Origin: a virus
Reading direction: 5' to 3' (one strand)
Virus record (IMG/VR): IMGVR_UViG_3300042260_000193
Coordinates: 1 to 34,891 of that record
Length of the DNA stretch: 34,891 nucleotides
The notes under the pieces are model-generated. The model made no database searches and was not told the origin of the DNA. It saw only the letters and a list, made by a program, of their open reading frames with translations. A program made the position numbers and the translations under genes. This document shows, in pieces, positions 3,888-34,891 of this stretch (positions are counted from its first letter, which is position 1; each line of letters begins with the position of its first letter).

Positions 3888-5147
3888 TTATACAATCTTC
3901 AAAATTCCACCGTCATTGTAAATGTCACCTGCATTCAACCCCGTAGGTGACGTAGGCAATCCCTCAAACCTTACTCGCCCACTTGTTGAGTGGAAGGCAA
4001 AGTGAGAATATCCTGTTCCTGATACAGCAGGGTTATAATAGAATCCTCTAATTATACCATTATAGGTCCCTGTATTTTCTATAGATGTACTAACCTGTAC
4101 AGCATTATAAGTTGCATTTCCAGATGCGAAAGACATCCTTCCTCCTATAGCTTGAATAGCCATATTACCTGTCGTTGAAGGATTGGCAGCGCCTCCTCCA
4201 CTTATGGTCATTATTGTTCCTGTATTGTACCCAACTTGATTTGTAAAATTATGTTGAGTTCCGTTTATTACATTAGATTGATAGTTAATTTGACCACTAT
4301 TAAAAATTCTTGTAGTAGAGCCATCTAAATTGAATGTTAATCCATTTCCTAGTGTCAAAGCACCACTCACCCTCGCAGTACCTTGAACATCAAATAAGTA
4401 ACCCGCATCTGTTGGGGCAACTGTACCGTTTGAAATAATTACGTTGTCAGTACCATCTTTCATGAAAAAACGATATGGTCTTGTCGAGCTTCCTATAAAA
4501 AATGTATTGTATGAACCATATCTAATTTGTGCATTATATACTCCAATTTCTAACCAACCTCCTCTTGTACTTGTTCCTCCATCAAAATCATTAAATGTAA
4601 TTCTATTTAATCTACCTGATACACTACCTTCTGACATTTGAATATAAGAAGTTCCTGCCGTCCCGGGTCCAAATACTCCAACACCATTAACATGAAATTT
4701 TTGAACAGGCGTACTCGTACCAATCCCCAAACGTCCATTCGTGTTATCCCAAAACAAGTTCCCCGACTCCTGCACAACATTCCCCGTTCCCTCGAATAAC
4801 ACCCGTCCGACTGTACCTGAAGTAATAGCAGTTGTGCCGATTGTTATGCCTGTTGAAATAGTATACGTTCTATCTGCCGATAAGTCTTGTGTTACTCCGT
4901 TTATTGTTAGGGTTCTTGATGTAGGGACTTTGGCGTCTAAAGCGTTTTGCAAGTCCGTTTGTGCGGATAGTGTGCCGCCTATATCTCCCCAGTCAACGTT
5001 GCCTACTGCGGCGTCTATTATTTCTTGACCTGTTATTGACTTGGAAACGTAACCTGTTCCAGTGAACTCGGCTACTTCTATTAGATCGTCTGCGGCTAGG
5101 TTTGAACCTTTGGCGGGTAGTTGGCTAATCTTTATTTTTTGGTTCAT
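3888..5147 (-). CDS. Tail fibre protein as assembled (possible chimera of two phages)
   Basis: 419 residues. The N-terminus (1-120) contains a virion-attachment-like segment 'MNQKIKISQLPAKGSNLA' and 'TNGRLGIGTSTPVQKFHVNG' (about 136-155), the repeat typical of Bacteroidota phage fibre shafts. The C-terminus is glycine- and Ser/Thr-rich beta structure ending 'GLNAGDIYNDGGILKIV'. Residues 192-260 are shared almost exactly with the partial fibre at 34283-34891. Base composition changes near 4740: CpG-rich upstream in the gene, CpG-poor downstream. The box TTTTAATATCGTTATG abuts the ATG. The residues after about 234 probably come from the side branch rather than the main phage. Confidence 0.75.
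   Translation of the reverse strand: MNQKIKISQLPAKGSNLAADDLIEVAEFTGTGYVSKSITGQEIIDAAVGNVDWGDIGGTLSAQTDLQNALDAKVPTSRTLTINGVTQDLSADRTYTISTGITIGTTAITSGTVGRVLFEGTGNVVQESGNLFWDNTNGRLGIGTSTPVQKFHVNGVGVFGPGTAGTSYIQMSEGSVSGRLNRITFNDFDGGTSTRGGWLEIGVYNAQIRYGSYNTFFIGSSTRPYRFFMKDGTDNVIISNGTVAPTDAGYLFDVQGTARVSGALTLGNGLTFNLDGSTTRIFNSGQINYQSNVINGTQHNFTNQVGYNTGTIMTISGGGAANPSTTGNMAIQAIGGRMSFASGNATYNAVQVSTSIENTGTYNGIIRGFYYNPAVSGTGYSHFAFHSTSGRVRFEGLPTSPTGLNAGDIYNDGGILKIV
4369..4574. repeat. 206-bp direct repeat, copy 1 (matches 34686-34891)
   Basis: Identical to 34686-34891 apart from T4447 versus C34764, which changes Asp to Gly in the fibre protein. The 127 bases 4448-4574 are exact and end where the window ends in the other copy. 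Offset between copies is 30,317 bp. Direct, not inverted. Confidence 0.97.
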
Positions 5148-5159
5148 AACGATATTAAA
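5148..5159 (-). promoter_or_regulatory. Start-abutting box TTTTAATATCG + GTTATG (fibre gene)
   Basis: The minus strand reads TTTTAATATCGTTATG into the fibre ATG. The same word with one variable base precedes the ATG of four other structural genes at identical spacing. It may be a translation enhancer or a phage-specific promoter giving nearly leaderless mRNA. Confidence 0.55.
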
Positions 5160-5160
5160 A

Positions 5161-5610
5161 TTAGTTACCTTCTTGTTTAAGTGGGACGGCGCAGTCTGTC
5201 CAGTTGTTCACGGCAAAAGTCGCAGTCATTACCCAACCCGCCGCGTAGTCTAGTAAGTCGTTGTTCAATGGGTCAAACGTTGGGGCGTCTACTAAATCGA
5301 AAGCGTAGTTTGTCGAATTGATAAAATACGTATACAAGTCGTAGAGTATTTGCTGGCAGTCGGACAGAATTACGTTAATGTTTTCGCGGTCTTTTTGTAT
5401 TATGTCGAAACAATAAATTTCTAGGACAAAGTCGTTCGTGTTTTCAGTGGCCAACGCTTGCACGGGTACAATAAAAACAATAGGGTACTTTTCGTCCTTT
5501 GTGGCGAAGTTGAACATTTGTTCTTTGAAGTCCGAACCTACCTTTTTAACCTGAACATGGTTGTTGTAAAAGTCCGTTATTTCGTTTATTAGTGCTTGGT
5601 AACTTGTCAT
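5161..5610 (-). CDS. Putative tail completion/terminator protein
   Basis: 149 residues, no membrane segment. It begins with a helix (MTSYQALINEITDFYNNH), followed by mixed alpha/beta sequence with 'YPIVFIVPVQ' (about 42-51) and 'LEIYCFDI' (62-69), the look of tail-terminator or neck proteins of Bacteroidota siphophages. It overlaps the tape-measure stop by 4 bp and precedes the fibre gene. It is a small structural protein by context; the exact role is inferred. Confidence 0.5.
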   Translation of the reverse strand: MTSYQALINEITDFYNNHVQVKKVGSDFKEQMFNFATKDEKYPIVFIVPVQALATENTNDFVLEIYCFDIIQKDRENINVILSDCQQILYDLYTYFINSTNYAFDLVDAPTFDPLNNDLLDYAAGWVMTATFAVNNWTDCAVPLKQEGN

Positions 5611-7634: not shown

Positions 7635-7646
7635 AACAATATTAGC
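7635..7646 (-). promoter_or_regulatory. Start-abutting box CTAATATTG + GTTATG (tape measure)
   Basis: The 15-bp gap between the 899-residue tail gene and the tape measure reads GCTAATATTGTTATG into the start. It is the most divergent of the five boxes (CTAATAT instead of TTTAATAT). Confidence 0.5.
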
Positions 7647-7649
7647 CTT

Positions 7650-10349
7650 TTAGTAGGTGCGTATTTCTAAAGTGGTGTTGTTTAGTATGTCGTCTTCGTG
7701 TGCGTGTCCGCTAGTATTGCAAGTAATTACAACTATGTCGCCGTCCGTGTTTATGTACGCACTTGTTAAGTGGTCATGGTTTACGTTATTAATCATTACA
7801 TAGGTTGTTAGTGCGTCGAAAGGTGTAGTAGGCGTTCCTAAATACTCCCCGTCATTTGTTCTAGTCCATGTAACTACGCCCACGTTATTAGCTAATTCTA
7901 GCGCATCTGGTGCGTTTGTACCCGTTTGTGTAAGGTTAGCTATATACGCGCCCCTTTGCGTTGCTATGCCGTTAATTCTAGGCGTTATAATTCCGTCTTC
8001 GTTTAGCGTGTTGTCGTCCCCAATAACTATACCGCGAACGCCTTGCGCTATTGTGTTACGCGTTCCGTATACCGATACGTTTGCACCTTCCAGAATTAAG
8101 TTGCCCGTAGACATTCTAGAGCGTAACACAGATTGCAAAGCTTCTTCCGTTGTTGTACTTGGTGCGGTGCTACCCGTGTTAGTAATAAAAGGCGCTAGTT
8201 GTATTTCGCTGTCTACGCTTATTAACTCAACTTTGGTTAGCGTGTCCGTGTTTGCGTTGTAGTCAATTACGCGGTTAATATTCCACCAACTATTGTCTAT
8301 GCGTATTTTGTCGTTAAGCTTCAACCCGTGAATGTCCGCTTCGGTCAACCTAAAAAACGCGGTTAACATTTTACCTTCGTTTATTTGGTTAATTGTACGT
8401 CGCCAATATAGGTTGTAAAGGTTGTTATTCGTTAGGCTTAAAGGTTGGTAGTAGTAAAAGTCGCACGTTCCAAAGTTCAAGTCGAAGCTAGGCGTTAGCG
8501 CGTTGTCGAAGTGCGTAATAGCTGGGTAGGTTGTTACCCCATAGGTACCCGTTAGCCCGCCGTCTATTAGGTCGTAAGACCCGCACGTCTGTTCACCGCC
8601 GTCGTAAAGTATTCTTAAACCCGTTTTAGGCGCTTGCCCGTCTATCATTGGAACTATTGCGCCAAAGGTTGTCGTAGTAATTGGCGTAGGCGAAAAGATT
8701 AGTTCTTTCGTGTCTATGTCTTTAACGTACTCGCTATTAAAAATGTATTCTAGTTGCCCGTATATTTCGCGGGTTGTGCTAAAATATAGCGTGTTCGGGG
8801 TGTCCGTGTCTTGCTTGTATGTTAAGATTAAGCGCTTGTTTGTTACGTCGGGTAAGAACGCAAGGCTTTGTTCGCGATCCTTTGCTAGTTTCTTTGTCCA
8901 GTCCTTTTGGGCGCCGTTGTCGTAGTATTCGTCGCGGTGGGTTAGTATTATGTTGTTAGGTTGTTCGGGGTCTACGTCAGCGAATAGGTTGTACATTGTA
9001 AAGACGGACTTAACAAAGTCGCTTTGCTTAATCTTTTGGGGTACGTATTCGTTCATGCTAACAAACCCGCCTATTGGTTGGGTATTGCTATTCGGCGTTA
9101 TTTCTACTTTAATGTCTAGAATGTCTAGGTTTACGTCTACTTGCGCCAAATTACCCGTAGAAACTTCGCGCCACTTATTGGTAGGTTGCCAATTTGAAGT
9201 TATGCCAGTAGCAATAGTTAATAGGTCGCCCGTTGTTATGTAGCCACTTGGGCTTGTTATTACGACATTTGCGTAAGAACCGAACGTGTTTAAACCGCTA
9301 GCTAAATAATCAAAAGGGTTTAAAGTAAACGGCGTTAAGTTAGCGGTTGTACCAACAAAGGAAGCGTTTAAAGCTTTAACGTAAGGCGTAAACGTTGCAC
9401 TTCCCGCAAAAGAACCTAGCGTTACTTCTACGTCCGTAGCCGCATGGTTGTAAAATTGTAGGTCGTAGCTTATTGTTATGTTAAATTCGTAGCCTTGTGA
9501 AGCCGCGGGGTCTGTGTCCGTTGGTGCGGTATATTGCCCCGTTGTTGGGTTAAAGATGCTTTGCGGGTCTAGTTCTTCTGTCCAAGGCGAAATAACTTCT
9601 TGAAAGGTATTAAACGAACCGCTAGGGGATTGCGCCGTAGTAGTTGTGTAGTCCGTTCTAGCGCGTACCTTGTAGTCGTTCCAGTCTATTTGGTTTTCGT
9701 CGCCGTTGTAAGGAATTAACAACTTGTCGAAACGTGCCGCTTGTAAGCCCGCCCAAGTGTATGAAAACCCCGCGTTTGCAAAGATGCGGTCGAAGTACGT
9801 CTTTGCATAGATAGCGGGCTTTAGTTGTCGAACGTTGTAAAGGTTGTCCGTGTCGTAAGGTAAGACGTATTTGTAGCCGTTGGCTTGCGTGAATGAGTAG
9901 GTAGAAATAATGCTACTAGAGTTTGCGTAGTGGTCTAGGTCGCTGAAGTCTATGTCGGTTAGTTCGGCGTTTGTTATTGCCGTAAATAGTTCCGCTTTCG
10001 TGTCCTTTATTAACACCTCGTAGTTAGCAACTTGTTCGTAGGCGTCCGTTGTTTGGTATTTGTTTACGGCAATAAGTTGTAAGATTGCGTCCTCTAAAAT
10101 TACAACGTCGTTTTGCAATACTTGGCAACGTGTTAACTGCGTAATGTCAAACGTACCCGCGTCTATGTTTACGTCGTAATAATGGTTTAGAAGTTGGTTA
10201 TTGTTGTCCGTTGCTGGTAGTACAATAGTCTTACTGAATGTACCCGTTCGCTTTGTTATGTCGCGTATTTCGCCAACTGAAAACGTCAAAGGGAAATTAA
10301 CGTCGGGGCGCACGTCTAGCACGCCGTTGTCTAAAACTATCTTAACCAT
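7650..10349 (-). CDS. Large tail/baseplate protein
   Basis: 899 residues, the longest protein here. It begins 'MVKIVLDNGVLDVRPDV' with 'KRTGTFSKTIVLPAT' (about 34-48), a start common to large tail proteins next to the tape measure in Bacteroidota siphophages. The middle is beta-rich. Near the C-terminus 'GVRGIVIGDDNTLNE' and similar turns look like a beta-helical or fibre-like extension. Position directly after the tape measure in the tail block suggests a tail-tip or baseplate hub role. I see no catalytic motif. It overlaps the upstream 489-residue gene by 8 bp. Confidence 0.7.
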   Translation of the reverse strand: MVKIVLDNGVLDVRPDVNFPLTFSVGEIRDITKRTGTFSKTIVLPATDNNNQLLNHYYDVNIDAGTFDITQLTRCQVLQNDVVILEDAILQLIAVNKYQTTDAYEQVANYEVLIKDTKAELFTAITNAELTDIDFSDLDHYANSSSIISTYSFTQANGYKYVLPYDTDNLYNVRQLKPAIYAKTYFDRIFANAGFSYTWAGLQAARFDKLLIPYNGDENQIDWNDYKVRARTDYTTTTAQSPSGSFNTFQEVISPWTEELDPQSIFNPTTGQYTAPTDTDPAASQGYEFNITISYDLQFYNHAATDVEVTLGSFAGSATFTPYVKALNASFVGTTANLTPFTLNPFDYLASGLNTFGSYANVVITSPSGYITTGDLLTIATGITSNWQPTNKWREVSTGNLAQVDVNLDILDIKVEITPNSNTQPIGGFVSMNEYVPQKIKQSDFVKSVFTMYNLFADVDPEQPNNIILTHRDEYYDNGAQKDWTKKLAKDREQSLAFLPDVTNKRLILTYKQDTDTPNTLYFSTTREIYGQLEYIFNSEYVKDIDTKELIFSPTPITTTTFGAIVPMIDGQAPKTGLRILYDGGEQTCGSYDLIDGGLTGTYGVTTYPAITHFDNALTPSFDLNFGTCDFYYYQPLSLTNNNLYNLYWRRTINQINEGKMLTAFFRLTEADIHGLKLNDKIRIDNSWWNINRVIDYNANTDTLTKVELISVDSEIQLAPFITNTGSTAPSTTTEEALQSVLRSRMSTGNLILEGANVSVYGTRNTIAQGVRGIVIGDDNTLNEDGIITPRINGIATQRGAYIANLTQTGTNAPDALELANNVGVVTWTRTNDGEYLGTPTTPFDALTTYVMINNVNHDHLTSAYINTDGDIVVITCNTSGHAHEDDILNNTTLEIRTY

Positions 10350-11823: not shown

Positions 11824-11841
11824 ATTCTAGTCCGTGTTAAT

Positions 11842-15454: not shown

Positions 15455-15457
15455 AGT

Positions 15458-24019: not shown

Positions 24020-24200
24020 CGTAAGTAATTTTAGTTATTTTATAATTTGCGTAAGCGTCGTAAATTTTTATTTCGTATTCTGCTAGAATTTCGCCGTTGG
24101 TATCGGTGTCGCCTTCATCCCAAAGGGTGACCATTAAGTAAACGAAGTTCATGCCGCTAGCTTTGTATACTTCGAAGTCTTTAAGTTCTGGTGTTTTCAT
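23892..24200 (-). CDS. Acidic small protein, unknown function
   Basis: 102 residues, acidic, starting 'MKTPELKDFEVYKASGMNFV' and ending 'NDADEWWCV'. The negative charge would suit a DNA mimic or a protein inhibitor, but that is speculation. It has no membrane segment. Closely packed with the next gene (1 bp gap). Confidence 0.6.
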   Translation of the reverse strand: MKTPELKDFEVYKASGMNFVYLMVTLWDEGDTDTNGEILAEYEIKIYDAYANYKITKITYDERLTIKETRACDERLTELYEANTFEDSYVTEYNDADEWWCV

Positions 24201-24201
24201 G

Positions 24202-24426
24202 TTATTTGAATTTGTCGTTATATACGTGGTTCATGTACTTGTTAAAGCTTGGCTTTAGTTCGTATGTCTTTTGTTTGTGTGTTTGTTCGTTTCGTGTTTT
24301 GGCATCTAGTACCGGGTAGCTATTTGTTGAAGCAAGCCAGTACAAAAAAACGAGGCCTAAAAGCATTATAATGCCACCGCCGAGCGTGTCGCGTTGGTAT
24401 TGGTCTAGGTTTTTAATTGTTTTCAT
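24202..24426 (-). CDS. Small single-span membrane protein
   Basis: 74 residues with one hydrophobic helix (about 15-32, GGGIIMLLGLVFLYWLAS) and a polar tail. It overlaps the upstream gene by 14 bp. Unknown; small membrane proteins at the front of the early region are often involved in host takeover or superinfection exclusion. Confidence 0.6.
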   Translation of the reverse strand: MKTIKNLDQYQRDTLGGGIIMLLGLVFLYWLASTNSYPVLDAKTRNEQTHKQKTYELKPSFNKYMNHVYNDKFK

Positions 24427-24586
24427 CTTGAATAGTATCTAAAAGGTTTAAAATTGAACCCCAAGCGCCGAGCGCGTAACGGGTGTGCTTATGGTCTACA
24501 CCATATTGGCTTTTGCATTCTTGCAAGTCCGCGTACAATTCTTGTTCTTTGCTGCGGATAAGGTCTAAAATTTGTTCTTTGTTCAT
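24413..24586 (-). CDS. First early gene, small helical protein
   Basis: 57 residues from ATG 24586 (MNKEQILDLIRSKEQELYAD). A longer start at 24652 would place the promoter element (24609-24616) within the coding region, so the internal start is preferred. The protein is helical and acidic with one Cys. It is the first gene of the early arc. Confidence 0.65.
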   Translation of the reverse strand: MNKEQILDLIRSKEQELYADLQECKSQYGVDHKHTRYALGAWGSILNLLDTIQDENN

Positions 24587-24602
24587 GTCGTTAGCGTTTT
24601 TG

Positions 24603-24639
24603 TATATGCAAATATATATAGCTTTATCGGATATATCAA
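24603..24639 (-). promoter_or_regulatory. Early promoter (TTG ... TATATTTG)
   Basis: Minus-strand TTG, a spacer of 20 bp, then TATATTTG (24616-24609): a good Bacteroidota-type promoter. The 16-bp element TATATATTTGCATATA (24618-24603) is identical to that of the erf promoter. A leader of about 15 nt leads to ATG 24586. Confidence 0.6.
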
Positions 24640-24731
24640 CAAAAAGTTTCACAAATGTTCAAAGTTTTTTTAACTTTTTTTAAAATCATAGTGTTTACTT
24701 GGGCTGCAGACGTGGTAAATTTTACAACTAT

Positions 24732-24761
24732 CGTAACAAATACCGCTATAAAAATGTTACG
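24732..24761. promoter_or_regulatory. Inverted repeat upstream of the early promoter
   Basis: Perfect 7-bp arms CGTAACA (24732-24738) and TGTTACG (24755-24761) with a 16-bp AT-rich spacer. It lies in the 230-bp gene-free stretch between the late terminator and the early promoter, which otherwise holds only an AT-rich run near 24660-24690. Operator or replication site; untested. Confidence 0.45.
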
Positions 24762-24765
24762 AAAC

Positions 24766-24789
24766 AAAAAAGCCACCCCGAAGGATGGC
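24766..24789 (-). terminator. Rho-independent terminator with UUCG loop
   Basis: Minus strand: GCCATCC (24789-24783), loop TTCG, GGGTGGC (24778-24772), six T (24771-24766). Seven pairs including one G-U. It ends the late arc after the metallophosphoesterase gene (stop 24816). Confidence 0.85.
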
Positions 24790-24815
24790 CTTTAACAACT
24801 ATGAAACGTGTAAAG

Positions 24816-25880
24816 TTAACTAAAAAAGTATTCGTTTATGCTTTTGCGGTGTTCGTCGTAGTTAAAATGCACAAAACCCGACTTACCTAGTTGAAAGTTT
24901 GTAGCTACCCAGTTGCTAGAGGGGCTAAAAGCGGGGTAATTATAATACTTGAAAACGTCCGAACTTGAACTATCAAATAAGTATAGGTGGCTGTCGCCTT
25001 TTTCAAAGGTAATATCTAGGCCTTTGTTAACTAGTTGTTTCGTGTTTAGGTAGCCGAGTATTTTGTTTATTTGGTTAGGATCTATTTTAGGCTTAAACCC
25101 GTGCTTTAAATTATGGGTGTCTTTTCCGTGCGTAGTAATGAAACAATAATTACCTACTAGTTCGTAGTCTATAAACGCCGTCTGGTTAATTACCTTCACG
25201 TGTTTTAAGTCGCGTTCGACGTATGTTTTGAAAGACTGGTTAACAAAGTACGCAAAGTCGCCGCTATGGTTGTCGTTGCAAATGTTTCGAACGTGAATAG
25301 TTTTGTAGAACGGCGCCAGGTATTGCAGTAACAAGGTCTTAAATTGAAAGCCAACATCGAAAGCTTTTTGGTTGCTCATGTTTTGCGGTAACGCGTGGCC
25401 GCCTCTAGTCGTTTGGGCGTTAAAGCCGTCTAAGTAGTCGCCTAGATCCAGAATATAAAGCGTGTCGCTGTTCTGTTTTTCTAGTGTGTAGCTTACCATT
25501 TGCTCTAGTCGGTCAAATAGTATATCTTCGTTCCATTCTGTGCCGTACATACTGCGCCCTTTGTCGCTTGCGTCCATTCCTATATGCACGTCTGTAAATA
25601 CTAGCTTGTCAAATAGGCCTTTGTGCGTTCGTTTTTTTGTAGGTTCTATAACTAGTTTCGGCGCGTCTTTAATTAGGGCCTCAAAGTCTATATTTTTAAC
25701 GTCGAAGTCATTACCAAAAGACGGATTTTTAAAGAACAAGCTAGCATCTTTCGATTTTAACCAGCCATGTTTAACGTCTTTTTCGTCTAAGCCTAGGCCG
25801 TTAGCTTGTTTTTTGATAGCCCGGTATTGATTGACTATGTCGGCTTCGTCTGGTTTTAATCTGTATCGAAATTGCTTCAT
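24816..25880 (-). CDS. Calcineurin-like metallophosphoesterase, second type
   Basis: 354 residues. Motifs: D-x-H (Asp97, His99), GDYLD (Asp148), a variant N-D-N-H (Asn202 to His205, 'ICNDNHSGDF'), and 'THGKDTHN' (His251). A late 'KGDSHLYLFD' stands where GHxH is expected. The N-terminal 85 residues are an extra domain with a helical part like a DNA-binding extension. Substrate unknown. It overlaps the u-spanin by 4 bp and is the last gene before the terminator. It differs in length and motifs from the 290-residue enzyme at 1029-1901. Confidence 0.8.
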   Translation of the reverse strand: MKQFRYRLKPDEADIVNQYRAIKKQANGLGLDEKDVKHGWLKSKDASLFFKNPSFGNDFDVKNIDFEALIKDAPKLVIEPTKKRTHKGLFDKLVFTDVHIGMDASDKGRSMYGTEWNEDILFDRLEQMVSYTLEKQNSDTLYILDLGDYLDGFNAQTTRGGHALPQNMSNQKAFDVGFQFKTLLLQYLAPFYKTIHVRNICNDNHSGDFAYFVNQSFKTYVERDLKHVKVINQTAFIDYELVGNYCFITTHGKDTHNLKHGFKPKIDPNQINKILGYLNTKQLVNKGLDITFEKGDSHLYLFDSSSSDVFKYYNYPAFSPSSNWVATNFQLGKSGFVHFNYDEHRKSINEYFFS

Positions 25881-26317
25881 AAATTGTATTTAGAGAATTT
25901 GAGTAACCAATGCGCAACGTAACCCGCCACGAATCCGATTATAAATAGCCACAAATTAGCTTTCGTTTTTTTATTGCGTTCGGTTTTCCACTTTACGACC
26001 TCTACTTTTTCTAGCATTTTTATAGTGTCGCGCTTTAGTCTGTATTCTATTCGTGTTTCTAGTCGCGTTTTAGGCACGAAAGAACGCTTGTAACGCACTA
26101 TCGTATCTTTTTGGTATATTACCCTTTCCCAATAAATTGAATCCCTTAAAACGTACGGAATCGAATCGACCGAACTTATTGTTATTGTGTCCGCAATAGT
26201 GTCGCAGCGGTAACCTTTTTTAATCGCCTTATTTATATGGTAATTAACGCCGCAACTTGTCACAATTATTGCAAGAATAAGTGACAAAATAAGGTTATAG
26301 CTTGAAAGTTTTTTCAT
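25877..26317 (-). CDS. Putative unimolecular spanin
   Basis: 146 residues. Lipoprotein signal (hydrophobic 8-20, lipobox 'VTSC' with Cys22) and a C-terminal membrane helix (about 120-137), with a charged periplasmic region between. This single-chain outer- plus inner-membrane design is that of u-spanins, which fuse membranes at lysis. The element 'KAIKKGY' is shared with the spanin at 1867-2352. It follows the M15 lysin by 11 bp. Confidence 0.68.
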   Translation of the reverse strand: MKKLSSYNLILSLILAIIVTSCGVNYHINKAIKKGYRCDTIADTITISSVDSIPYVLRDSIYWERVIYQKDTIVRYKRSFVPKTRLETRIEYRLKRDTIKMLEKVEVVKWKTERNKKTKANLWLFIIGFVAGYVAHWLLKFSKYNL

Positions 26318-26328
26318 TTTTTAAGGCT

Positions 26329-26793
26329 TTAGGCTGATATTTCAAAGTGCATCCAGTCGTAATTCTTGGCTCTTCCCAAACTTAAGAATCCGTGTTTCTC
26401 GAAAATGTCTAGCATTTGTTTGTACTCGGGGCGTGCAAAGCGTGCAGTTTTACTAGTTTCTTTCAAAGTGTTTCTAGCGGGGTCTAAATCTATGGCAATA
26501 CCCCACGCGTGCTTCGACCATGAAGTACCGCCGCGCATTTTGCGGTAATTAAAACAGCCCCCGTAAAGGTCTATACCTAGTTCTACTATACGTTCGTACC
26601 CGTACACCTCTAAAAGTTCGTTAAACACGCTTAAAAAGGCGTTAGCTACGTCTTTATGGCAACGCATACGGGTTACTTTTGTCTTGGTGTCCCATGCTAT
26701 ACGCATCGGATAGGGTAGATTAATAGTAGTTAAGTACGTTCCCGCTTCGTTAGGTTGTCCGTATTTCTTTAGGGCTTGGGCAGTTGTTAGCAT
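26329..26793 (-). CDS. M15-family L,D/D-peptidase endolysin
   Basis: 154 residues. Zinc site of the M15 (VanY/Ply-type) family: '[13 protein letters not shown]' (His95, Asp102, SxHxxGxAxD) and 'YDWMHFEI' (Asp146, His149). The family cuts peptide bonds in peptidoglycan stem peptides. There is no signal peptide, so a holin is needed, and one lies directly upstream. It is unrelated to the amidase at 2615-3259. Its start reads AACAAGTTATG. Confidence 0.88.
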
Positions 26794-26845
26794 AACTTGT
26801 TATTAAAGGGACAAATGTCCAGTTTTTTGAACTATAAACGGGACT

Positions 26846-27271
26846 TTATTTAAGTTCCTCTAGTTGTTCTTTGCTGCGTAGTACAAAGGTTTTAAACTTG
26901 TCCCAAACATTTACACCAGTTACAGAAAAGTAGCTTTCGTTAATGCTTTTTACTTCGGTTACTACGCAGAAGAAAGTAAACATTTTTGTTAACACTAGAT
27001 CCACCGCAATGAAATGACCTAGAATGTCGGAGACTACGTATTTTTCCAGCAAGAAAATAAACACAATAGCACCCGAATAAAGAAGGCTTTTGCTTATTGT
27101 ATGGCTCAAACGTCTAGAACGTATAGACGACCAACCGCCTTTTTTCACGCTTCGCCAAATACCAAAACACGTGTCTAAAATAATAGCTAGCACGGCAATA
27201 AATACAAGCGGTTTAACGGGCGCTAAAACGGATAGTAAGGCAAAGGCTAGAATTTGTGTTTTAGTTGTCAT
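26846..27271 (-). CDS. Putative holin
   Basis: 141 residues with about three membrane stretches (7-39, 60-80, 85-105) and a charged end. 'KSINESYFSVTGVNVW' (about 107-122) matches the protein at 3256-3750. It overlaps the adaptor gene by one base and precedes the lysin, so the lysis genes are expressed together with head genes. Confidence 0.65.
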   Translation of the reverse strand: MTTKTQILAFALLSVLAPVKPLVFIAVLAIILDTCFGIWRSVKKGGWSSIRSRRLSHTISKSLLYSGAIVFIFLLEKYVVSDILGHFIAVDLVLTKMFTFFCVVTEVKSINESYFSVTGVNVWDKFKTFVLRSKEQLEELK

Positions 27272-27828
27272 TAAAAAACCATTATTGAGTTATTGTACCC
27301 GTTGTCGTTGTAACGTTGGCCACAACGTCCAAAACACGTACCTATGCAATCGCACGCGTCAATCTGTGGGCGTAAGTCTGTGTCGCGGTTTTCCTTACTT
27401 GTAAAAAGCGGGAAAAGGTTTTTATTGGCTAGCAACCATTTCGAAAGTCGGGCTTCAAAGAAACTCGCTTTTTGTGCGTAGTGTTCCATAGAAAAGGCTA
27501 CTTCAGCACGGCTTACACTACTAGAAAAGTCCCCAAACTGCGTTTGCAAACCTTTGTTTTTAAGTTGGTACGAAAGGCCAAAAACGGCGTCTTCTGCCGA
27601 ACGCCACGCTACTACGGGTTGAATAAACGCAACTAGTTCTTGTTCGTCGTTGGTTAACGTTTGGTTGTTGTACTTTGCTAGAAGGTCGTTATAAAACACG
27701 GAACCCAATATAGGTTGAACGCGTAAGTCTGATTGCGTTTTAATGTATGGCGTTACGTCTGTTACGTCTACATTTGCCGTAATAGGCGTGTTCGTCTTTA
27801 AGTAGTTTTCTGTTATAAAGTAAATCAT
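27271..27828 (-). CDS. Head-tail adaptor (connector) protein
   Basis: 185 residues. The opening 'FITENYLKTNTPITANVDVT' and 'LRVQPILGSVFYNDLLAKYN' (about 35-54) are typical of connector proteins next to the portal in Bacteroidota phages. The C-terminus has a cysteine group 'ACDCIGTCFGRCG' (about 158-170) that may bind metal. It overlaps the portal stop by 4 bp. Confidence 0.7.
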   Translation of the reverse strand: MIYFITENYLKTNTPITANVDVTDVTPYIKTQSDLRVQPILGSVFYNDLLAKYNNQTLTNDEQELVAFIQPVVAWRSAEDAVFGLSYQLKNKGLQTQFGDFSSSVSRAEVAFSMEHYAQKASFFEARLSKWLLANKNLFPLFTSKENRDTDLRPQIDACDCIGTCFGRCGQRYNDNGYNNSIMVF

Positions 27829-29126
27829 AGCGCGGGGGTTTGTACGGGTATTACGTCGCCACCTTCAACGGGTGGTAAGCTTGCAAGCGCTCTAATTTCG
27901 TTCGGTGTCATGGTGTCAAGTACTTTAGTAGCTACCAACGGCGACATAGCGTTAAGGGCGTCTTGGGTTTTACTTGCGTCGCCTTCTACTTCTACGATAG
28001 TTTCATTAATAATCTGGAAATTCTTAATAGAAAACGTAGCAGACAAACGCGAAATGTTAATTAACTCTTGAAAAATTTCCGTTACTTGTTCGCGCAAAGG
28101 AATTACAACGTTCTTTTCAAAAATAATGTAGGCTTGTTTAATGTCCGAACCATTACCCAAAGAACCCGTAGTGCGAACGCCTAGTAAGATAGGGTCGATA
28201 GTATGGGCAAAGCAAATTTGTTCGGTATTTAACCCGCTAGCTTCTTGAAATAGTTTGTCGTTTTGGTTTGTTGGTATGCTTTCGATTTTCGGTAATTGGT
28301 CTTGACTATTTGCAAAGAAGGCCACACCTTTACCCGCGTTATGCGCACCTTTCATGCGGTCGATAGTGTCGCGTAGTACTTTCTTTTCTTCTTCGCTTTG
28401 TGGGCGTTTAGGAAAAAGCATAGCAAAAGACGGGAAAATAGAGTTTTGAATGTTCGACTTTGCAAAGTATGAAAGTTCGCCAGACAAGAAAGCGAAGTTT
28501 AAAGCGCTAGTGTATTGCGGTAATGGGTAATAATCTTGACCAATGCTAGGTAATTCGTAGGCGTAAAGCTGGCACTTGTCCGTATTTAGTGGGTGGTATG
28601 GTTTAACGGGTTCTACGTCTATTCTACTACTCCAGTCGTCGCACAAATAGTAACAATCTTTTTTGTTGTTAATACGTACCTTTTCGGGGCTTACGTTTTC
28701 AATGCTTTTTACTTTTCCTTTGTCGTCAAAGTACAATTTAAAGTACACGCGGTGGTGCATTACTAGTTGTTTTGTAACGGCTTTAAGCGCTTTAGATAGG
28801 CGCATTTTCTTTTCCCAAGTATACAACGCTAGTTTTTCGTCGGGCGTTAACTTGTCCGTCTTTAATTCGTACCCCGCGCCTATTGTAGCGTTAACTTTAA
28901 AGTCCACAACCGCCCCATGTAAGGGCGACATATAGTAAAGTTGGTTTAACGTTTCGGGGAAAAGGTTGTCTTGTCCAAAAGGAATATAGCCCGCCACTTG
29001 GTAGCGTCCGTTAACGTAAGGTAGCGTTAAGTTACCCCCGCCAATTTTACCGAACGGCGTTGAAAAGCTTTGATAGCCTTCTATTACCTCTGGTTTTTGT
29101 TGTCTAAATCTATCAAAAATACCCAT
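27825..29126 (-). CDS. Portal protein
   Basis: 433 residues from 'MGIFDRFRQQKPEVIEG', a start typical of HK97-type portals; 29135 (MTSMGIF) is also possible. The sequence is that of a portal: 'MSPLHGAVVDFKVNATIGAG', 'NVSPEKVRI', 'ELSYFAKSNIQNSIFPSFAM' and a long helix near the C-terminus. It forms the dodecameric ring through which DNA enters. The upstream gene stop overlaps or abuts its start. All flanking genes are head genes. Confidence 0.88.
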   Translation of the reverse strand: MGIFDRFRQQKPEVIEGYQSFSTPFGKIGGGNLTLPYVNGRYQVAGYIPFGQDNLFPETLNQLYYMSPLHGAVVDFKVNATIGAGYELKTDKLTPDEKLALYTWEKKMRLSKALKAVTKQLVMHHRVYFKLYFDDKGKVKSIENVSPEKVRINNKKDCYYLCDDWSSRIDVEPVKPYHPLNTDKCQLYAYELPSIGQDYYPLPQYTSALNFAFLSGELSYFAKSNIQNSIFPSFAMLFPKRPQSEEEKKVLRDTIDRMKGAHNAGKGVAFFANSQDQLPKIESIPTNQNDKLFQEASGLNTEQICFAHTIDPILLGVRTTGSLGNGSDIKQAYIIFEKNVVIPLREQVTEIFQELINISRLSATFSIKNFQIINETIVEVEGDASKTQDALNAMSPLVATKVLDTMTPNEIRALASLPPVEGGDVIPVQTPAL

Positions 29127-29127
29127 A

Positions 29128-29478
29128 CTAGTCATATATCGAAGACACGGCAACGCCAGCAACTACCATGCGGCCTTCTTCTATTAAGTTTAATTCGTCT
29201 GTGTTCGTGTTTTCGTCTACTATTATTTCTACGAGGCTTTCGTAAACGCTATATTTATATTGACCTTTTGTTAGTGTGACGTCTACGCCTTCTTCTAAAG
29301 TGAAAAGGTTGTAACGTTGTGGCCAATTACTAGTGTCTACACCCGCCCAAAAGATAGGCTCTACGGCGGTGTTATATTCGCCCTCAAACACGAACAAATA
29401 AAAGGGGTTTACTAACGTCGTTACCTCGCTTAATGTCAGCGCGAACGTGTTTATTTCCCCCTTGTCTATGTAAATCAT
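29128..29478 (-). CDS. Small virion-associated protein, unknown function
   Basis: 116 residues from ATG 29478. The longer frame to 29517 adds a non-conserved stretch, while ATG 29478 carries the box TTTAATATTGTTATG, so it is preferred. Beta-rich ('NPFYLFVFEGEYNTA', 'LTKGQYKYSVYE'). I recognise the pattern from Bacteroidota phages near portal and tail genes, but no function is known. Confidence 0.7.
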   Translation of the reverse strand: MIYIDKGEINTFALTLSEVTTLVNPFYLFVFEGEYNTAVEPIFWAGVDTSNWPQRYNLFTLEEGVDVTLTKGQYKYSVYESLVEIIVDENTNTDELNLIEEGRMVVAGVAVSSIYD

Positions 29479-29490
29479 AACAATATTAAA
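29479..29490 (-). promoter_or_regulatory. Start-abutting box TTTAATATTG + GTTATG
   Basis: Decides the start at 29478. In this case and at 32107-32118 the word TTTTTGAAC also lies 15 bp upstream of the box. Confidence 0.55.
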
Positions 29491-29510
29491 TTTTGAAAGC
29501 GTAACGTTCA

Positions 29511-29537
29511 AAAACACAAAACCCCCTAAAGAGGGGG
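29511..29537 (-). terminator. Terminator after the putative tail tube gene
   Basis: Minus strand: CCCCC (29537-29533), six-base loop, GGGGG (29526-29522), then a T-rich tail broken by single G (TTTTGTGTTTTT). It separates the tail tube gene from the portal block. Confidence 0.7.
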
Positions 29538-29565
29538 CTAGTGTTATCCGAATAAAAGGGCTTAA

Positions 29566-30084
29566 TTATGGTGTAGTCAATCCCGCAATAATAGCTGGGT
29601 CTACCTCGTAAGCCAAAGATTCGTTTTCCGCGATTAAAGTAAGGGAATATTTACTGCCGTCTGCACGGGTAACCCCAGAGCCTTCGCCGTAAGCGCTAAC
29701 TTGCAAGTATGGAAAATACCAATATTTGCCGTTTGCGTCGCCTACTACCGCGTTCAAGTACTGCTGGCCAGCGCCTAATACTTTAATAGCGCGGCTTTTT
29801 TCTTGGTCGCGTCGGTGGAACATTAAGTTAATTGTTTGAGTAACAAAAGACGAACCATTTACTAGGTCGATAGTTCCGTCTTCGGTAAAGCTACCCGTGT
29901 TACGTTTGAATTCTAGCGCAACGTAAGGCGCAGTTTTAGTAATAGCGGTTACTTCCCAGTTCGTGCCTGTTTCGTCTGTGGTAATACCCGTAATGTTGTC
30001 TTGTTGGTTAATCAACAAAGTGTAAATCCCGCCGCTGTTGTTGTTGCAGTCTTTTAGGATTTCTTCGAGTGTAGCGCAAGCCAT
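29566..30084 (-). CDS. Putative major tail tube protein
   Basis: 172 residues, beta-rich, starting 'MACATLEEILKDCNNNSGGI' and with 'NLMFHRRDQEKSRAIKVL' (about 86-103) and a C-terminal 'LIAENESLAYEVDPAII'. Its size, beta content and position fit a siphophage tail tube protein. It is isolated between two terminators, which suits a protein made in large amount. Confidence 0.6.
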   Translation of the reverse strand: MACATLEEILKDCNNNSGGIYTLLINQQDNITGITTDETGTNWEVTAITKTAPYVALEFKRNTGSFTEDGTIDLVNGSSFVTQTINLMFHRRDQEKSRAIKVLGAGQQYLNAVVGDANGKYWYFPYLQVSAYGEGSGVTRADGSKYSLTLIAENESLAYEVDPAIIAGLTTP

Positions 30085-30107
30085 GATTTTTAGATTTAAT
30101 TGGTTAT

Positions 30108-30135
30108 AAAAAAGGGCGGCGTTTTATGGCCGCCC
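30108..30135 (-). terminator. Strong terminator after the major capsid gene
   Basis: Minus strand: GGGCGGC (30135-30129), eight-base loop, GCCGCCC (30120-30114), six T (30113-30108). Perfect GC-rich stem. Confidence 0.88.
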
Positions 30136-30160
30136 CGTATCTTTTTAAATTGTGTTACGA

Positions 30161-31093
30161 TTAAGCAGCGAAGCAGTCGTTATATACAACAATTTGTGAA
30201 GGGTTCGTGTAGTGGAAACCAGCTTTAAGGTTTGCACGTGTACGAATGTAAGGTTCTGCAACTGAATCAGACAAGTTAACCGCTTTAAGGGCTTTAGAAT
30301 CTCCTTCAGCATCAAAGGCGTAAATAAGGTCTGTTTTCAAAGCAAGAACCATAGTAGAGGTTGGCATACCTTCAGCAAGAACGATTTTAATACCTAAGAA
30401 TGTAGGCGCTAAAGGTGCAGTAACGTAAGTTAAAGTGTTACCAGAAGCCGCGGCAATTTGGTAATTAACGAATACGTCGCTAGAAACGAACAAACGAAGG
30501 TCAGCACGTTTAGCTTGAACAGCCGCTGGACTAGCTTGAAGTACGCTAGTCATGCGAGCCAATACGTTAGACGAAGTAATAGCGTCAGTATAGAGGCCGT
30601 TAACTGCTACGTCTGCACAAAGTTTTTTCAAGTACCCGTCGCACAAAGATAAAACTGGGTCTGTGCTAGTGGTGTCGCCTTGCCAACGGATCAACTCGAG
30701 GTCGTTACCGATACGGCCAGCCATTTCGTTCCAGTAGTAAGACATAAAGCTAGCTACTGAAAAGTCGCCGTTTGAACCTTGCGACATTTGTAAAGCAAGA
30801 AAAGATTGCTCGAGGTCAAATTGGCAAATTTGGCTCATAGCTGAAAGCGCACATACGTCGATGTCTACAGCGTCAAGGTTGTCTGTAGGAGCGGCGAAGT
30901 TACAAGTAGAAGGCGCAAGCAAGTTACCGAAAGTAACGTTCGCTAATTTAGTAGCTGACTTAATACCTGGCAAAGTGCGGTAGTTGTCTGCAATGTCTTC
31001 TGTTAAATAAGCTTTGCTGTAAAACTCATCTGGGTTAGGACAAAGAAGCGCGTTTGTTTCTACGTCCAAGTCAAATTTTAGATTTCTAATCAT
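30161..31093 (-). CDS. Major capsid protein (HK97-like)
   Basis: 310 residues, no signal peptide, no membrane segment. Beta and helix pattern with 'DFSVASFMSYYWNEMAGRIG' (about 109-128), then 'ADLRLFVSSDVFVNY' and 'GIKIVLAEGMPTSTMVLA' (about 234-251), characteristic of the P and A domains of HK97-type shells. It is preceded by the protease/scaffold gene and followed by a strong terminator, as for a highly expressed coat protein. Confidence 0.82.
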   Translation of the reverse strand: MIRNLKFDLDVETNALLCPNPDEFYSKAYLTEDIADNYRTLPGIKSATKLANVTFGNLLAPSTCNFAAPTDNLDAVDIDVCALSAMSQICQFDLEQSFLALQMSQGSNGDFSVASFMSYYWNEMAGRIGNDLELIRWQGDTTSTDPVLSLCDGYLKKLCADVAVNGLYTDAITSSNVLARMTSVLQASPAAVQAKRADLRLFVSSDVFVNYQIAAASGNTLTYVTAPLAPTFLGIKIVLAEGMPTSTMVLALKTDLIYAFDAEGDSKALKAVNLSDSVAEPYIRTRANLKAGFHYTNPSQIVVYNDCFAA

Positions 31094-31122
31094 TGTTTTG
31101 GTTTTTATTTGTTTTTAAATTA

Positions 31123-32106
31123 TTACTTGTTAAATGCGCGAAAAGCTTTGAACTTATCGAAAGCCGACATTTTTTCGTTTTTCGCTAGTTCGATTTGGTC
31201 TTCGACTTCTTCTTTTGCTACGCCTAGTTCTTCGATTTGGTTTTTCAAGTCTGCAACCATTCCGATAACGGCGTTAATTTGTTCTTCGAGAATAGGCATA
31301 ACGATAGCTTTAATGGCTTCAGCGTCTGTAGCTGGGTCTACTGCCATTTCGGCGTCTGCTACTTCTTCTTCTACTACTTCTTCTTCGGTTACGCTAGTGT
31401 CTTCCATAGCCACTTCTTCGGTAACTTCTTCAGTTACTTCGGCCATTTCGACTTCTTCTTTTTCTACTTCTTTAATTTCTACTACTTGGCCGTCTTTAAC
31501 CACGTAGATTTTACCTTCAATAAGGTGTTCTCCGTCTGGGAAATTCATGTTATTTTGTTTTAAGTGTTTACTTAATTTCATACCCAGAAAGCCTTCAATA
31601 GAAAAACCTACTTGTTCGTTTTTTACTAGTTCGTTATAGTACTCTTTGTCGGTTACTTGGGCGGTTAGCATTAACGTACCTTTAGGCACTTCGATGCCAT
31701 AGGTTGTAAATGCTTTGTCTTGGGTTGGGTTTTCGACTATCCACGCTTCTAGAATGTAAGCGGGTACCTCTTTACTAGGGTCATGTTCAAGATTAAAAAC
31801 GTTTCTGTTTTGTAGGTCTTGCATGAACTTAACGTGAATTTGCTCTATTGTTTGTTCGTCAAACTGCACGTAGTACTCGCCCGCTTCGTCGTCGCGTCTG
31901 TAAATATCCATAGGGATCATTGCGGGGGCGGTTACCCTATACTTTAAGTCGTCGCTAAAGAAACGTTTTTGTACGTTTGCGAAGGCTAAACCGCGTACTT
32001 TTATAGCTGGGTTGGAAGTGAAAGCAATTTGTTCAATGCCTAATTCTTCGCCGTCGCTATACTCGGGGTCTATTGTAATTTTGTAAACGGGTAAGTCGTT
32101 AACCAT
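31123..32106 (-). CDS. XkdF-type prohead protease with scaffold-like C-terminus
   Basis: 327 residues from ATG 32106, the start fixed by the box TTTTAATATGGTTATG (another ATG lies at 32112). The N-terminal part carries the XkdF serine protease pattern: 'NLEHDPSKEVPAYILEAWIV' (His108) and 'NEQVGFSIEGFLGMKL' (Ser169). Residues of about 210-327 are a very acidic, repetitive helix (EVTEEVTEEVAMEDTSVTEE), as in scaffolds. One protein thus probably serves as both scaffold and maturation protease. It is next to the capsid gene. Confidence 0.82.
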   Translation of the reverse strand: MVNDLPVYKITIDPEYSDGEELGIEQIAFTSNPAIKVRGLAFANVQKRFFSDDLKYRVTAPAMIPMDIYRRDDEAGEYYVQFDEQTIEQIHVKFMQDLQNRNVFNLEHDPSKEVPAYILEAWIVENPTQDKAFTTYGIEVPKGTLMLTAQVTDKEYYNELVKNEQVGFSIEGFLGMKLSKHLKQNNMNFPDGEHLIEGKIYVVKDGQVVEIKEVEKEEVEMAEVTEEVTEEVAMEDTSVTEEEVVEEEVADAEMAVDPATDAEAIKAIVMPILEEQINAVIGMVADLKNQIEELGVAKEEVEDQIELAKNEKMSAFDKFKAFRAFNK

Positions 32107-32118
32107 AACCATATTAAA
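32107..32118 (-). promoter_or_regulatory. Start-abutting box TTTAATATGG + GTTATG
   Basis: The fifth copy. It contains an ATG of its own (start 32112), but the box spacing in the other four cases points to ATG 32106. Confidence 0.5.
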
Positions 32119-32125
32119 AAAGCCT

Positions 32126-32133
32126 TATATTTG
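32126..32133 (+). promoter_or_regulatory. Plus-strand promoter element TATATTTG
   Basis: Full TAnnTTTG match, 18 bp before the plus-strand ATG 32151, in the 44-bp gap between divergent genes. No -33 TTG is evident. Confidence 0.55.
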
Positions 32134-32150
32134 TTCAAAAAATTATTACT

Positions 32151-32690
32151 ATGGTTACTATCCTAAACAAAGAAATTCCTAACGAATTAAACGAGTTGAC
32201 TATACAGCAGTTCGAAGACATTACAGAAATTCACGCTAACCCGAAACTAGACCACGTAGAAAAACACCTAGAAGTTTTTAAGTACATGGGCGTTAGTGAC
32301 GAAATAGAAGACGTAGACTTCGAAACGTTTAAAGAGTTTATCCGTGTTTTCAATACGGCAAAGGCGCCCGAAGGCGTACTATTAAAACGCTTTGAAGCGG
32401 ACGGGTACACCTACGAAGCCTACCAAGAAGAATGGAAGTTAAGCGCCAAAGAAACGAAGCTAATTGAAAAGACGCTAAACAATAAACACAAAGGCTACAT
32501 TTCCGAAGTGCTAGCGGTGCTTTTCAAACGTACCGACCTAACAAAAAACGAACACTACACCGACGCGCATATTAAACACAAAGCAAAAATAATTCGTGAA
32601 CTACCCGCCGAAGTTGCAGTACCTTATTTGGTAGCAGTAGCCGACACAATTAACAAACAAGTTCAATCTTTAAATGAAGTTACCGAATAG
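32151..32690 (+). CDS. Paralogous pair, first member (possible tail assembly chaperone)
   Basis: 179 residues. It shares its plan with the next gene: an N-terminal helix region, 'DGYTYEAYQEEWKL' (compare 'DGHTYTLQPFKKLTL'), and 'LAVLFKRTDLTKNEHYT' (compare 'ASVFWRRTELDKWGN'). Such a pair near tail genes could be tail assembly chaperones, a role suggested by the family's usual place near the tape measure in related phages. Here it is on the opposite strand to all other genes. It has a promoter element just upstream. Confidence 0.65.
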   Translation: MVTILNKEIPNELNELTIQQFEDITEIHANPKLDHVEKHLEVFKYMGVSDEIEDVDFETFKEFIRVFNTAKAPEGVLLKRFEADGYTYEAYQEEWKLSAKETKLIEKTLNNKHKGYISEVLAVLFKRTDLTKNEHYTDAHIKHKAKIIRELPAEVAVPYLVAVADTINKQVQSLNEVTE

Positions 32691-33447
32691 TTGGCTAGAG
32701 GTTAAGACGTACCAATTTAAGGAACTACGCGCTTTAAAAGATGCGGGCGGGTTCTTTAACATTCAGCTAGAAACGTTGGCTATTTTAGCGGACGTAAGCA
32801 CGGACGAACTAGAAGACCTAACACTAGAAGAAGTAGGCGACTTGTTTAGGTCGGTTAAATGGGTGTTGCATGAGCCTAAAAAGGGCGTGTGTAACGAACT
32901 ATTAATAGACGGACATACATACACCTTACAACCATTCAAGAAACTAACGCTAGACGAATTTATAGACCTTGAACATTTCCTAGAAAACGACTACCTAGTT
33001 CATATTTCGCATATTGCTTCCGTGTTTTGGAGACGTACCGAACTAGACAAGTGGGGAAACCTACTATTTGAGCCGTATATTTTTAGCCCGTTTGATCGCT
33101 ACGAACTTTTCGAAGAAGTAGAAATAACAAAAATCTATGGAATAGTCCCCGAATATTTAAAGTTTAGGGAAAATTTCATGCAGAAATACAAGGGTTTGTT
33201 TAACCAAGACGAAGACGAACCGCTAGAAGTTAAAGACTTCGATAGCATAGCCGAATACAAAGAACACTTGAAGGCCCAAGAACAAGAACAAAAGGCTAAA
33301 AAGTGGGGCTACGAAAGTTTAATATTTGATTTGTGCGACGGCGACATAACAAAAATAAAGGCAGTCGGTGAACTGCCCTTAATACTTGTTTTTAATATGC
33401 TCGCAATGCGTAAAGAAATGGGGTATTTAGAAACCCCTAAAGGTTAA
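32674..33447 (+). CDS. Paralogous pair, second member (possible tail assembly chaperone)
   Basis: 257 residues, overlapping the first gene by 17 bp in the +1 frame with its own ATG. The core 'LTLDEFIDLEHFLENDYLV' and 'TKIYGIVPEYLKFRENF' matches a protein family common in Bacteroidota phages that I associate with tail assembly. The extra C-terminal part is charged and helical. It ends in a convergent 21-bp overlap with the tail completion gene. Function is inferred. Confidence 0.68.
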   Translation: MKLPNSWLEVKTYQFKELRALKDAGGFFNIQLETLAILADVSTDELEDLTLEEVGDLFRSVKWVLHEPKKGVCNELLIDGHTYTLQPFKKLTLDEFIDLEHFLENDYLVHISHIASVFWRRTELDKWGNLLFEPYIFSPFDRYELFEEVEITKIYGIVPEYLKFRENFMQKYKGLFNQDEDEPLEVKDFDSIAEYKEHLKAQEQEQKAKKWGYESLIFDLCDGDITKIKAVGELPLILVFNMLAMRKEMGYLETPKG

Positions 33448-33858
33448 AGGCGCGTTAAAGTCGCCGCCTATTGGTTGGAAAGTGTAAACAATACTACGCT
33501 TGTCGCCTAGAATTTTAGCTACTTGCAAGATAGGATAGCGTTGTGTCATCCATTCGGTGTACTGGGCGTAAATTTCCGCGGTAATTCCTTCGGCGTTTAG
33601 TCGTTCGGTAAGCTTTGCGCAAAGGTCGAAAGGGGCCATATTTATCGTTCCGTTGTTTAGAAACCCGAAATAATACATTGCTAGTATTTGTATTTCTAGT
33701 TCGCCTAGCGCGGGAATAGCGGCGTTAATACGAACACTATCGTAAAGGGCGCCCGTGTCTATTAGCGCTTCTTCGGCTATTACCTTACGTAACGTTCTAG
33801 CTATCTTATTACGAGTAGCATATTTAACGTTAAAAACTCCGTTATTCTTGTAGGCCAT
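33427..33858 (-). CDS. HK97 gp10-like tail completion / minor head protein
   Basis: 143 residues. 'RKVIAEEALIDTGALYDSVR' (about 24-43) is the hallmark of the HK97 gp10 family, which joins head and tail. The middle 'YYFGFLNNGTIN' fits the same fold. It overlaps the small upstream gene by 17 bp and the plus-strand gene by 21 bp. Confidence 0.75.
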   Translation of the reverse strand: MAYKNNGVFNVKYATRNKIARTLRKVIAEEALIDTGALYDSVRINAAIPALGELEIQILAMYYFGFLNNGTINMAPFDLCAKLTERLNAEGITAEIYAQYTEWMTQRYPILQVAKILGDKRSIVYTFQPIGGDFNAPLTFRGF

Positions 33859-33982
33859 TTTCGTTTGGTTCTTCTTCTTGTTTCTGGTTTAGAATGTTCA
33901 ATACCAAAACACCAAACTTAGTCGGCATTTCGGCAATTACTTGTTCTAGTTCTTTTACTTGTTTTTCGGTTAGTGTTAACAT
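33842..33982 (-). CDS. 46-residue protein, unknown function
   Basis: MLTLTEKQVKELEQVIAEMP with an acidic, Gln-rich end. ATG 33982, TAA 33842, overlapping the gp10-like start by 17 bp. It fills the gap before the tail completion gene. Helical; no motif. Confidence 0.6.
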   Translation of the reverse strand: MLTLTEKQVKELEQVIAEMPTKFGVLVLNILNQKQEEEPNENGLQE

Positions 33983-34000
33983 AGCTTTTTTCTTGCTAAG

Positions 34001-34273
34001 TTACGAAATAATTGTAACCCCAATTGCGTCAGCTACATACTCGTTAACTACGTTGTTATCTAACCCCCAAGCGGCAAACTGCTCTTCGGTCAAAGTGTAG
34101 TTGTCCGCCTTTAAGCACTTACCTTCTTCGGTTAATAGTTCGTAGTAAGTTTGGCAAGTTGTTGCGGTTGTTTCGAAGTTCAATACAAGGACTGACATTC
34201 GTGTTGCCGTACCTTCGTTAAGTGGGTATACGATTGGTTCAATCGCTACGCCGTTTGTTGGTGTTGTTGTCAT
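34001..34273 (-). CDS. Small tail-associated protein, unknown function
   Basis: 90 residues with 'MTTTPTNGVAIEPIVYPLNE' and 'YTLTEEQFAAWGLDNNVVNE' (about 59-78), a pattern I know from short genes next to fibre genes in Bacteroidota phages. Role unknown. It lies 9 bp after the fibre gene. Confidence 0.65.
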   Translation of the reverse strand: MTTTPTNGVAIEPIVYPLNEGTATRMSVLVLNFETTATTCQTYYELLTEEGKCLKADNYTLTEEQFAAWGLDNNVVNEYVADAIGVTIIS

Positions 34274-34282
34274 ATTTATAAT

Positions 34283-34891
34283 TTATAAAGTTATCCAAGT
34301 TGTTCCGTCATAAAAACACGGACGATTTAAAGTTGTGTCGAATATTTGAAGTCCCGTTGCAGGTGATGCAATAGCGTTCTTTTGTGTTGTTGTCATTCGT
34401 GGGGGAAGGAAGCCTTTGGTTGTTGAAACTGCCTGTATAATTGCTGATGCCTCAGGTGTAGATACCCCGTAAGTCCCCAAGGAAATACCATATTCTGCTC
34501 TTGTATTTATTCTTGCTGAATCAGTGCTTATAATAATGTTTGTTCCCCCGCCTGCAAATTGAAAATTATAGCTATATTGTCTGAATTGAATTCCTCCACT
34601 TACAAAAATACCTTGGTTACTATCGGAACCAATTTGAACCCCTTGACCGTTAACATTTCCCGTGTTTACGGATAATGTATTTACAACCCTCGCAGTACCT
34701 TGAACATCAAATAAGTAACCCGCATCTGTTGGGGCAACTGTACCGTTTGAAATAATTACGTTGCCAGTACCATCTTTCATGAAAAAACGATATGGTCTTG
34801 TCGAGCTTCCTATAAAAAATGTATTGTATGAACCATATCTAATTTGTGCATTATATACTCCAATTTCTAACCAACCTCCTCTTGTACTTGT
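34283..34891 (-). CDS. Tail fibre protein, C-terminal part (start beyond window or joined to 4575)
   Basis: The reading frame is open to the window end, so the gene is 5'-partial here. It shares about 69 residues with the fibre at 3888-5147, then diverges and ends 'GLQIFDTTLNRPCFYDGTTW', a C-terminus common among Bacteroidota phage fibres. If the window end joins base 4575, the protein is 393 residues and in frame (573 + 609 bases = 394 codons). Composition of the divergent part is AT-rich, so the tip may be a transferred module. Confidence 0.75.
   Translation of the reverse strand, partial: TSTRGGWLEIGVYNAQIRYGSYNTFFIGSSTRPYRFFMKDGTGNVIISNGTVAPTDAGYLFDVQGTARVVNTLSVNTGNVNGQGVQIGSDSNQGIFVSGGIQFRQYSYNFQFAGGGTNIIISTDSARINTRAEYGISLGTYGVSTPEASAIIQAVSTTKGFLPPRMTTTQKNAIASPATGLQIFDTTLNRPCFYDGTTWITL
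34686..34891. repeat. 206-bp direct repeat, copy 2 (matches 4369-4574)
   Basis: One mismatch (C34764 versus T4447). The final 127 bases are exact and run to the last base of the window, consistent with a k-mer overlap at a contig end. Confidence 0.97.

Follow-up and report, generated by a model that had tools for sequence, protein, structure and literature searches.

A metagenome contig that probably joins two phages through a shared, near-identical tail-fibre cassette

Introduction

Simulations with metaSPAdes and MEGAHIT contigs, carried out for the contig-joining tool COBRA, showed that end overlaps of maximal k-mer length (maxK) occur at regions common to different genomes (PMC10914622). 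Chimeras between genomes that originate at such regions escape contig-joining tools, and COBRA states its own inability to detect them (PMC10914622). With regard to the phages themselves, Smug et al. (2023) found recent mosaicism across phage families in fibres and spikes only (PMC10684548).

The two subjects meet in the virus record IMGVR_UViG_3300042260_000193, which was analysed over its whole length of 34,891 nt (the window). Sequence comparison gives a probability of about 0.93 that this metagenome contig is a chimera of two phages, A and B, which share a fibre segment, S, that moved recently between them. The two would have been glued together during assembly because this near-identical piece of tail fibre is common to both. 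The reading draws on the synteny of the circle formed by A, the identity of the B part, the linkage of alleles to A and B, a reciprocal chimera and the fit to k = 127.

The terminal repeat

The 206 nt at 4369-4574 are found again at 34686-34891, with a spacing of 30,317 and a single mismatch (4447 T, 34764 C). The end of the window thus equals an internal stretch for exactly 127 bases (34765-34891 and 4448-4574) and then differs at 4447/34764, which is the form of a lariat. The repeat, its lone mismatch and the exact 127-base end had all been described in a first-pass annotation, and were borne out when the window sequence was re-examined. None of the remaining repeats in the window is longer than 38 nt, and they are 71-90% alike, so a chance origin of the 206-nt repeat is excluded. 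The same annotation proposed a circle with a side branch and pointed to 127 as a usual largest k-mer of assemblers. This reading is supported by relatives that join the ends, by their 127-base overlaps and by a k-mer graph in which branch and circle meet at a k = 127 vertex. When position 34891 is connected with 4575, the fibre frame stays open over 393 amino acids and ends in a stop, as predicted.

Phage A and the closure of the circle

Phage A occupies 4575-34891 and would form a circle of 30,317 bp closing from 34891 to 4575, as indicated by synteny and by 127-base overlaps in relatives. The small and large terminase genes (terS and terL), the portal gene and the capsid-like, protease-like and tape-measure genes are each present in one copy in the circle, in agreement with the first reading of the sequence. 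Since the circle carries terminases, a portal and capsid-like and tape-measure genes, A is a tailed phage; the tape measure points to a siphovirus-like one, and no tail sheath was found among the proteins scanned. The A endolysin (26329-26793, minus strand) contains a Peptidase_M15_4 domain (Pfam, 3.5e-11). At the opening of the circle, the N-terminal part of the A fibre (4575-5147, minus strand) continues at 34891, and the C-terminal part (34283-34891, minus strand) includes A's own left part of S (34686-34891). A small fibre-accessory ORF (34001-34273, minus strand) is 73% identical at the amino acid level to an ORF in the fibre cluster of B, and the tail-completion ORF is found at 33427-33858.

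It had also been suggested that the early and the late arc each end in a terminator. Immediately beyond the metallophosphoesterase gene there is indeed a hairpin (24793-24768); a scan of 24000-34891, however, gave 15 terminator-like hits versus 12.2 +/- 3.5 in shuffled sequences, which is no excess. Two further features of A may be mentioned. A PAPS-reductase-like protein (phrog_424) is encoded among the early genes at 19976-20767, and a short in-frame tandem repeat of 12 nt, giving SGKS units, is found at 16900-16944, towards the C-terminal end of an ORF that spans 16877-17116.

The closure of A is based on its relatives. Related IMG/VR contigs, the best of them 65-91% identical to A in the tape measure, align over nearly the whole circle, and many run across the site at which the circle is opened in the window. 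At least 14 relatives have a fibre locus of 2.2-3.4 kb that links the tail-completion ORF with the ORF following the tape measure; the corresponding distance in the closed circle A is 2.5 kb. In one relative (L023) the A-type fibre N-terminus and C-terminus, homologous to the two parts found at opposite ends of the circle sequence, are contiguous within a single gene whose middle part differs. Another contig (G005) breaks inside the A-type fibre locus. Exact 127-base end overlaps are present in three relatives of about 30 kb, which are likely products of the same pipeline. G004 is a closed circle of 30,152 bp. G002 and G003 are lariats, the end of G002 matching from position 827 on (827-953 and 29706-29832, circle of about 28.9 kb) and that of G003 from position 405 on (405-531 and 29191-29317, circle of about 28.8 kb); their short side branches are probably strain variants. 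As the relatives have 127-base overlaps and join the two ends of the window, k was 127, and a circular or circularly permuted A genome of about 30.3 kb is supported. Bases 4575-4724 of A are represented solely by a collapsed edge common to A and B. No single contig reading A-S-A was found in IMG/VR, where the exact S pattern occurred in L025 and L071 only, in a search that may pass over the record of the window itself and those close to it.

Uncultured A-type phages in IMG/VR, such as 3300043468_000519 and 3300042472_000148, resemble A in gene order, in nucleotide sequence over the structural arc (77-87%) and in forming circles of about 29-30 kb. Between the shared flanking genes, most of them carry fibre proteins unlike those of A.

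The side branch and phage B

The side branch (1-4447, minus strand) is DNA of a podovirus, B. The evidence is its composition and its match to L025 (IMGVR_UViG_3300047480_000113), a partial contig of B of 27,520 bp, to which window positions 1-4727 are 99.91% identical with mismatches only at 75, 83, 87 and 4725. The branch encodes a 200-aa ORF, a 77-aa ORF, a metallophosphoesterase, a 161-aa Rz-like ORF and a 93-aa ORF, and further an amidase, a holin-like ORF and the 3' end of the third B fibre. The amidase is the B endolysin, an N-acetylmuramoyl-L-alanine amidase (2615-3259, minus strand; Amidase_2, Pfam 1.2e-11). The branch thus brings a second lysin (Amidase_2 versus the Peptidase_M15 of the circle) as well as a second metallophosphoesterase.

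On both sides of the match L025 is flanked by podovirus genes, and the contig comprises three tandem fibre genes, a holin-like gene and the amidase, followed by terL and a portal-type gene. The large terminase of B is 79% identical to that of Podoviridae sp. ctfjg026 (MW202828, circular, 60,850 bp) and 45% identical to those of Flavobacterium elemo podoviruses. Like B, these phages have a portal-type gene adjoining terL; the lysin differs, being Amidase_2 in B and Peptidase M15 in MW202828. Through its relative described as a podovirus B can be placed among the podoviruses, and its genome is probably about 60 kb. The three tandem fibre paralogues (L025 3775-9372) have DAGYxLDVNGTARV linkers and mostly the same C-terminal GFLPPRMT module, and might be a store of exchangeable cassettes.

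The dinucleotide distance of the branch is 0.022 to the rest of B versus 0.243 to A; among segments of A it is 0.03-0.095. By sequence, composition and gene content, the branch and the circle are different genomes. Apart from the fibres, the proteins of A and B correspond only in the fibre-accessory ORF (73% identical) and, weakly, in an Rz-like protein. Composition and gene content also rule out that the branch is a strain variant of A.

These data bear on the alternative raised in the first-pass annotation, a longer genome with a true second copy of the fibre; the window would then be a single linear genome that also has a second lysis module. The contig as printed reads that way. Sequence and composition, however, assign the branch to another phage, the end of the window falls exactly on the k = 127 vertex, and the relatives close at the same place. 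Two true fibre copies in one genome were rejected on these grounds; the alternative is contradicted, has hardly any probability left, and survives only in the form of an unlikely cointegrate of A and B.

The B metallophosphoesterase (window 1029-1901) is 69-70% identical at the nucleotide level to G003 8123-8867 and G004 24378-25119, and the metallophosphoesterase of A itself differs from the B-like one in these two relatives. This gene is possibly another case of exchange between the A and B phage groups.

The shared fibre cassette

S (4369-4727, minus strand) is near-identical in A and B, and corresponds to L025 8533-8891 and L071 9967-10325. L071 (IMGVR_UViG_3300051215_000053) is a contig from another assembly. 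The shared part is about 356 bp (4369-4724) with one difference between A and B, at 4447, and is exact over 277 bp (4448-4724). On either side the A and B sequences part sharply, and L025 and L071 both leave the window at 4725. Recent mosaicism is recognised by at least 90% identity between otherwise unrelated genomes, and S, with its one difference in about 356 bp, lies within that range.

At position 4447 the T goes with B (left copy of the window, L025) and the C with A (window end, L071). Because the two alleles go with different genomes, A and B each own a copy of S. The linkage weighs against an explanation in which S is present in B only and A acquired it purely by assembly error. Under that explanation it would be noted that S is collapsed in both chimeric contigs and that a separate allele is seen beside A for the left part only. 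Yet in two contigs the left copy in A is marked by a separate allele, C at 34764, and closing the circle yields an intact fibre whose two termini are the same as in L023. We regard this explanation as very improbable.

S encodes residues 141-259 of the A fibre. It starts within a GIGTSTP motif and ends exactly at DAGYLFDVQGTARV, so that its borders are conserved linkers, and such linkers recur in the B fibres. The block that follows in the A fibre (4701-4841) likewise resembles B, with 93% identity to its first fibre. In IMG/VR the cassette was found in L025 and L071 only, apart from one 59% relative and one partial match, while the C-terminal end module of the fibre is very widespread (at least 587 loci). 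Among cultured phages no match was obtained for the S protein, for the A capsid or, in a nucleotide search, for the fibre/tape-measure region, and no Pfam domains were detected in the fibre proteins.

From these comparisons we infer a recent exchange of a fibre cassette between two morphotypes, by which the A and B lineages would have come to have S in common. Recombination probably took place at the repeated linker motifs that flank S, GIGTSTP and DAGYxxDVxGTARV. The base composition of S, measured over 359 bp only, is outside the A range and near B, which suggests a B-like donor; the direction was probably from such a donor into A.

The k-mer graph and the reciprocal contig

A de Bruijn graph built at k = 127 from circle A and contig B (L025) contained four edges, namely S (4448-4724), A (4598-34891), B-left ending at 4574, and B-right. 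The branching 127-mer at 4448-4574 (V1), where B and A enter S, equals the last 127 bases of the window, and the graph predicts a second one at 4598-4724 (V2), where A and B leave S. The end of the A edge coincides with the last base of the window, 34891, at k = 127 only (at k = 99 it is 34863, and at k = 141 it lies beyond the window).

Being longer than k, S would collapse to one edge with two entries (A and B) and two exits (A and B). The assembler would then have gone from B-left through S and round the whole of A, halting on its return to the vertex at which S is entered and leaving a lariat that ends in an exact 127-mer. The other assembly may have taken the path from A through S to B-right. 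L071 matches window 24720-34891 at 99.93%, passes through S and continues into B-right (99.98%), and so reads as the reciprocal chimera, A to S to B. The window contains a complete A and a fragment of B, and L071 a fragment of A. The choice of path may reflect an imbalance in abundance, the more abundant phage being followed out of S.

The reciprocal contig also raises the question of a physical cointegrate, in which a circular A had entered B by a single crossover in S. The order would be B-left, S, A, S, B-right, with the window as its left part and L071 as its right part. Taken together the two contigs do read B, S, A, S, B. The k-mer graph would not differ from the one for A and B as separate genomes, the two S alleles would flank A, and the cross-joins chosen in both assemblies (from B into A in the window, from A into B in L071) would follow as well. 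L025, on the other hand, reads B-S-B without A, the relatives of A close as circles of about 30 kb, and the collapse of a short segment common to both genomes in a de Bruijn graph accounts for these data with no further assumption. A hybrid of about 90 kb with two complete morphogenesis sets would fit neither capsid. Because A-type and B-type genomes occur apart and such a hybrid is implausible, the cointegrate is given only a slight chance. If true, it would be a recombination intermediate in nature, with the siphovirus-like A inside a fibre gene of the podovirus B.

Hosts and significance

A scan of bacterial genomes with a portal profile revealed no relative from which a host of A could be read, and its terL and portal gave weak hits, at 22-34%, that were scattered across Bacteroidota and other phages. 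In A (4575-34891), which is rich in CpG, CCGG occurs 4 times versus 53 expected, CAGG 4 versus 63 and CCTG 15 versus 90. In B (L025, 27.5 kb) GATC is found 0 times versus 99 expected. The opposite site avoidance suggests different host restriction or modification backgrounds for A and B despite the shared fibre cassette.

If A and B have been joined by the assembler as proposed, the deposited record mixes two phages, and whatever is derived from it on gene counts, lysis genes, completeness and host would be in error over about 13% of the sequence. Trimming the record at 4575 would yield a complete new circular phage genome. A real fibre exchange would then create chimeric contigs in both directions, and lariat ends in virus databases could serve to detect recent transfers from one phage to an unrelated one. 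The near-identical fibre cassette in two co-occurring morphotypes makes a shared receptor testable.

Comparison with known systems

The window resembles the cases described with COBRA in its exact end overlap of length k, in the region shared between genomes and in the circularity deduced from an end overlap (PMC10914622). It differs from them in that the overlap is internal, giving a lariat, and that the assembler crossed the shared region without a break (PMC10914622). As in the mosaicism described by Smug et al. (2023), a near-identical fragment is found in the fibres of otherwise unrelated phages (PMC10684548). The case of S is seen at the DNA level, with one difference in about 356 bp, and concerns an internal cassette between linkers, in an uncultured siphovirus-like genome and a podovirus genome. 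The exchange of S is a clear new case of the domain shuffling known from phages, and not a new kind.
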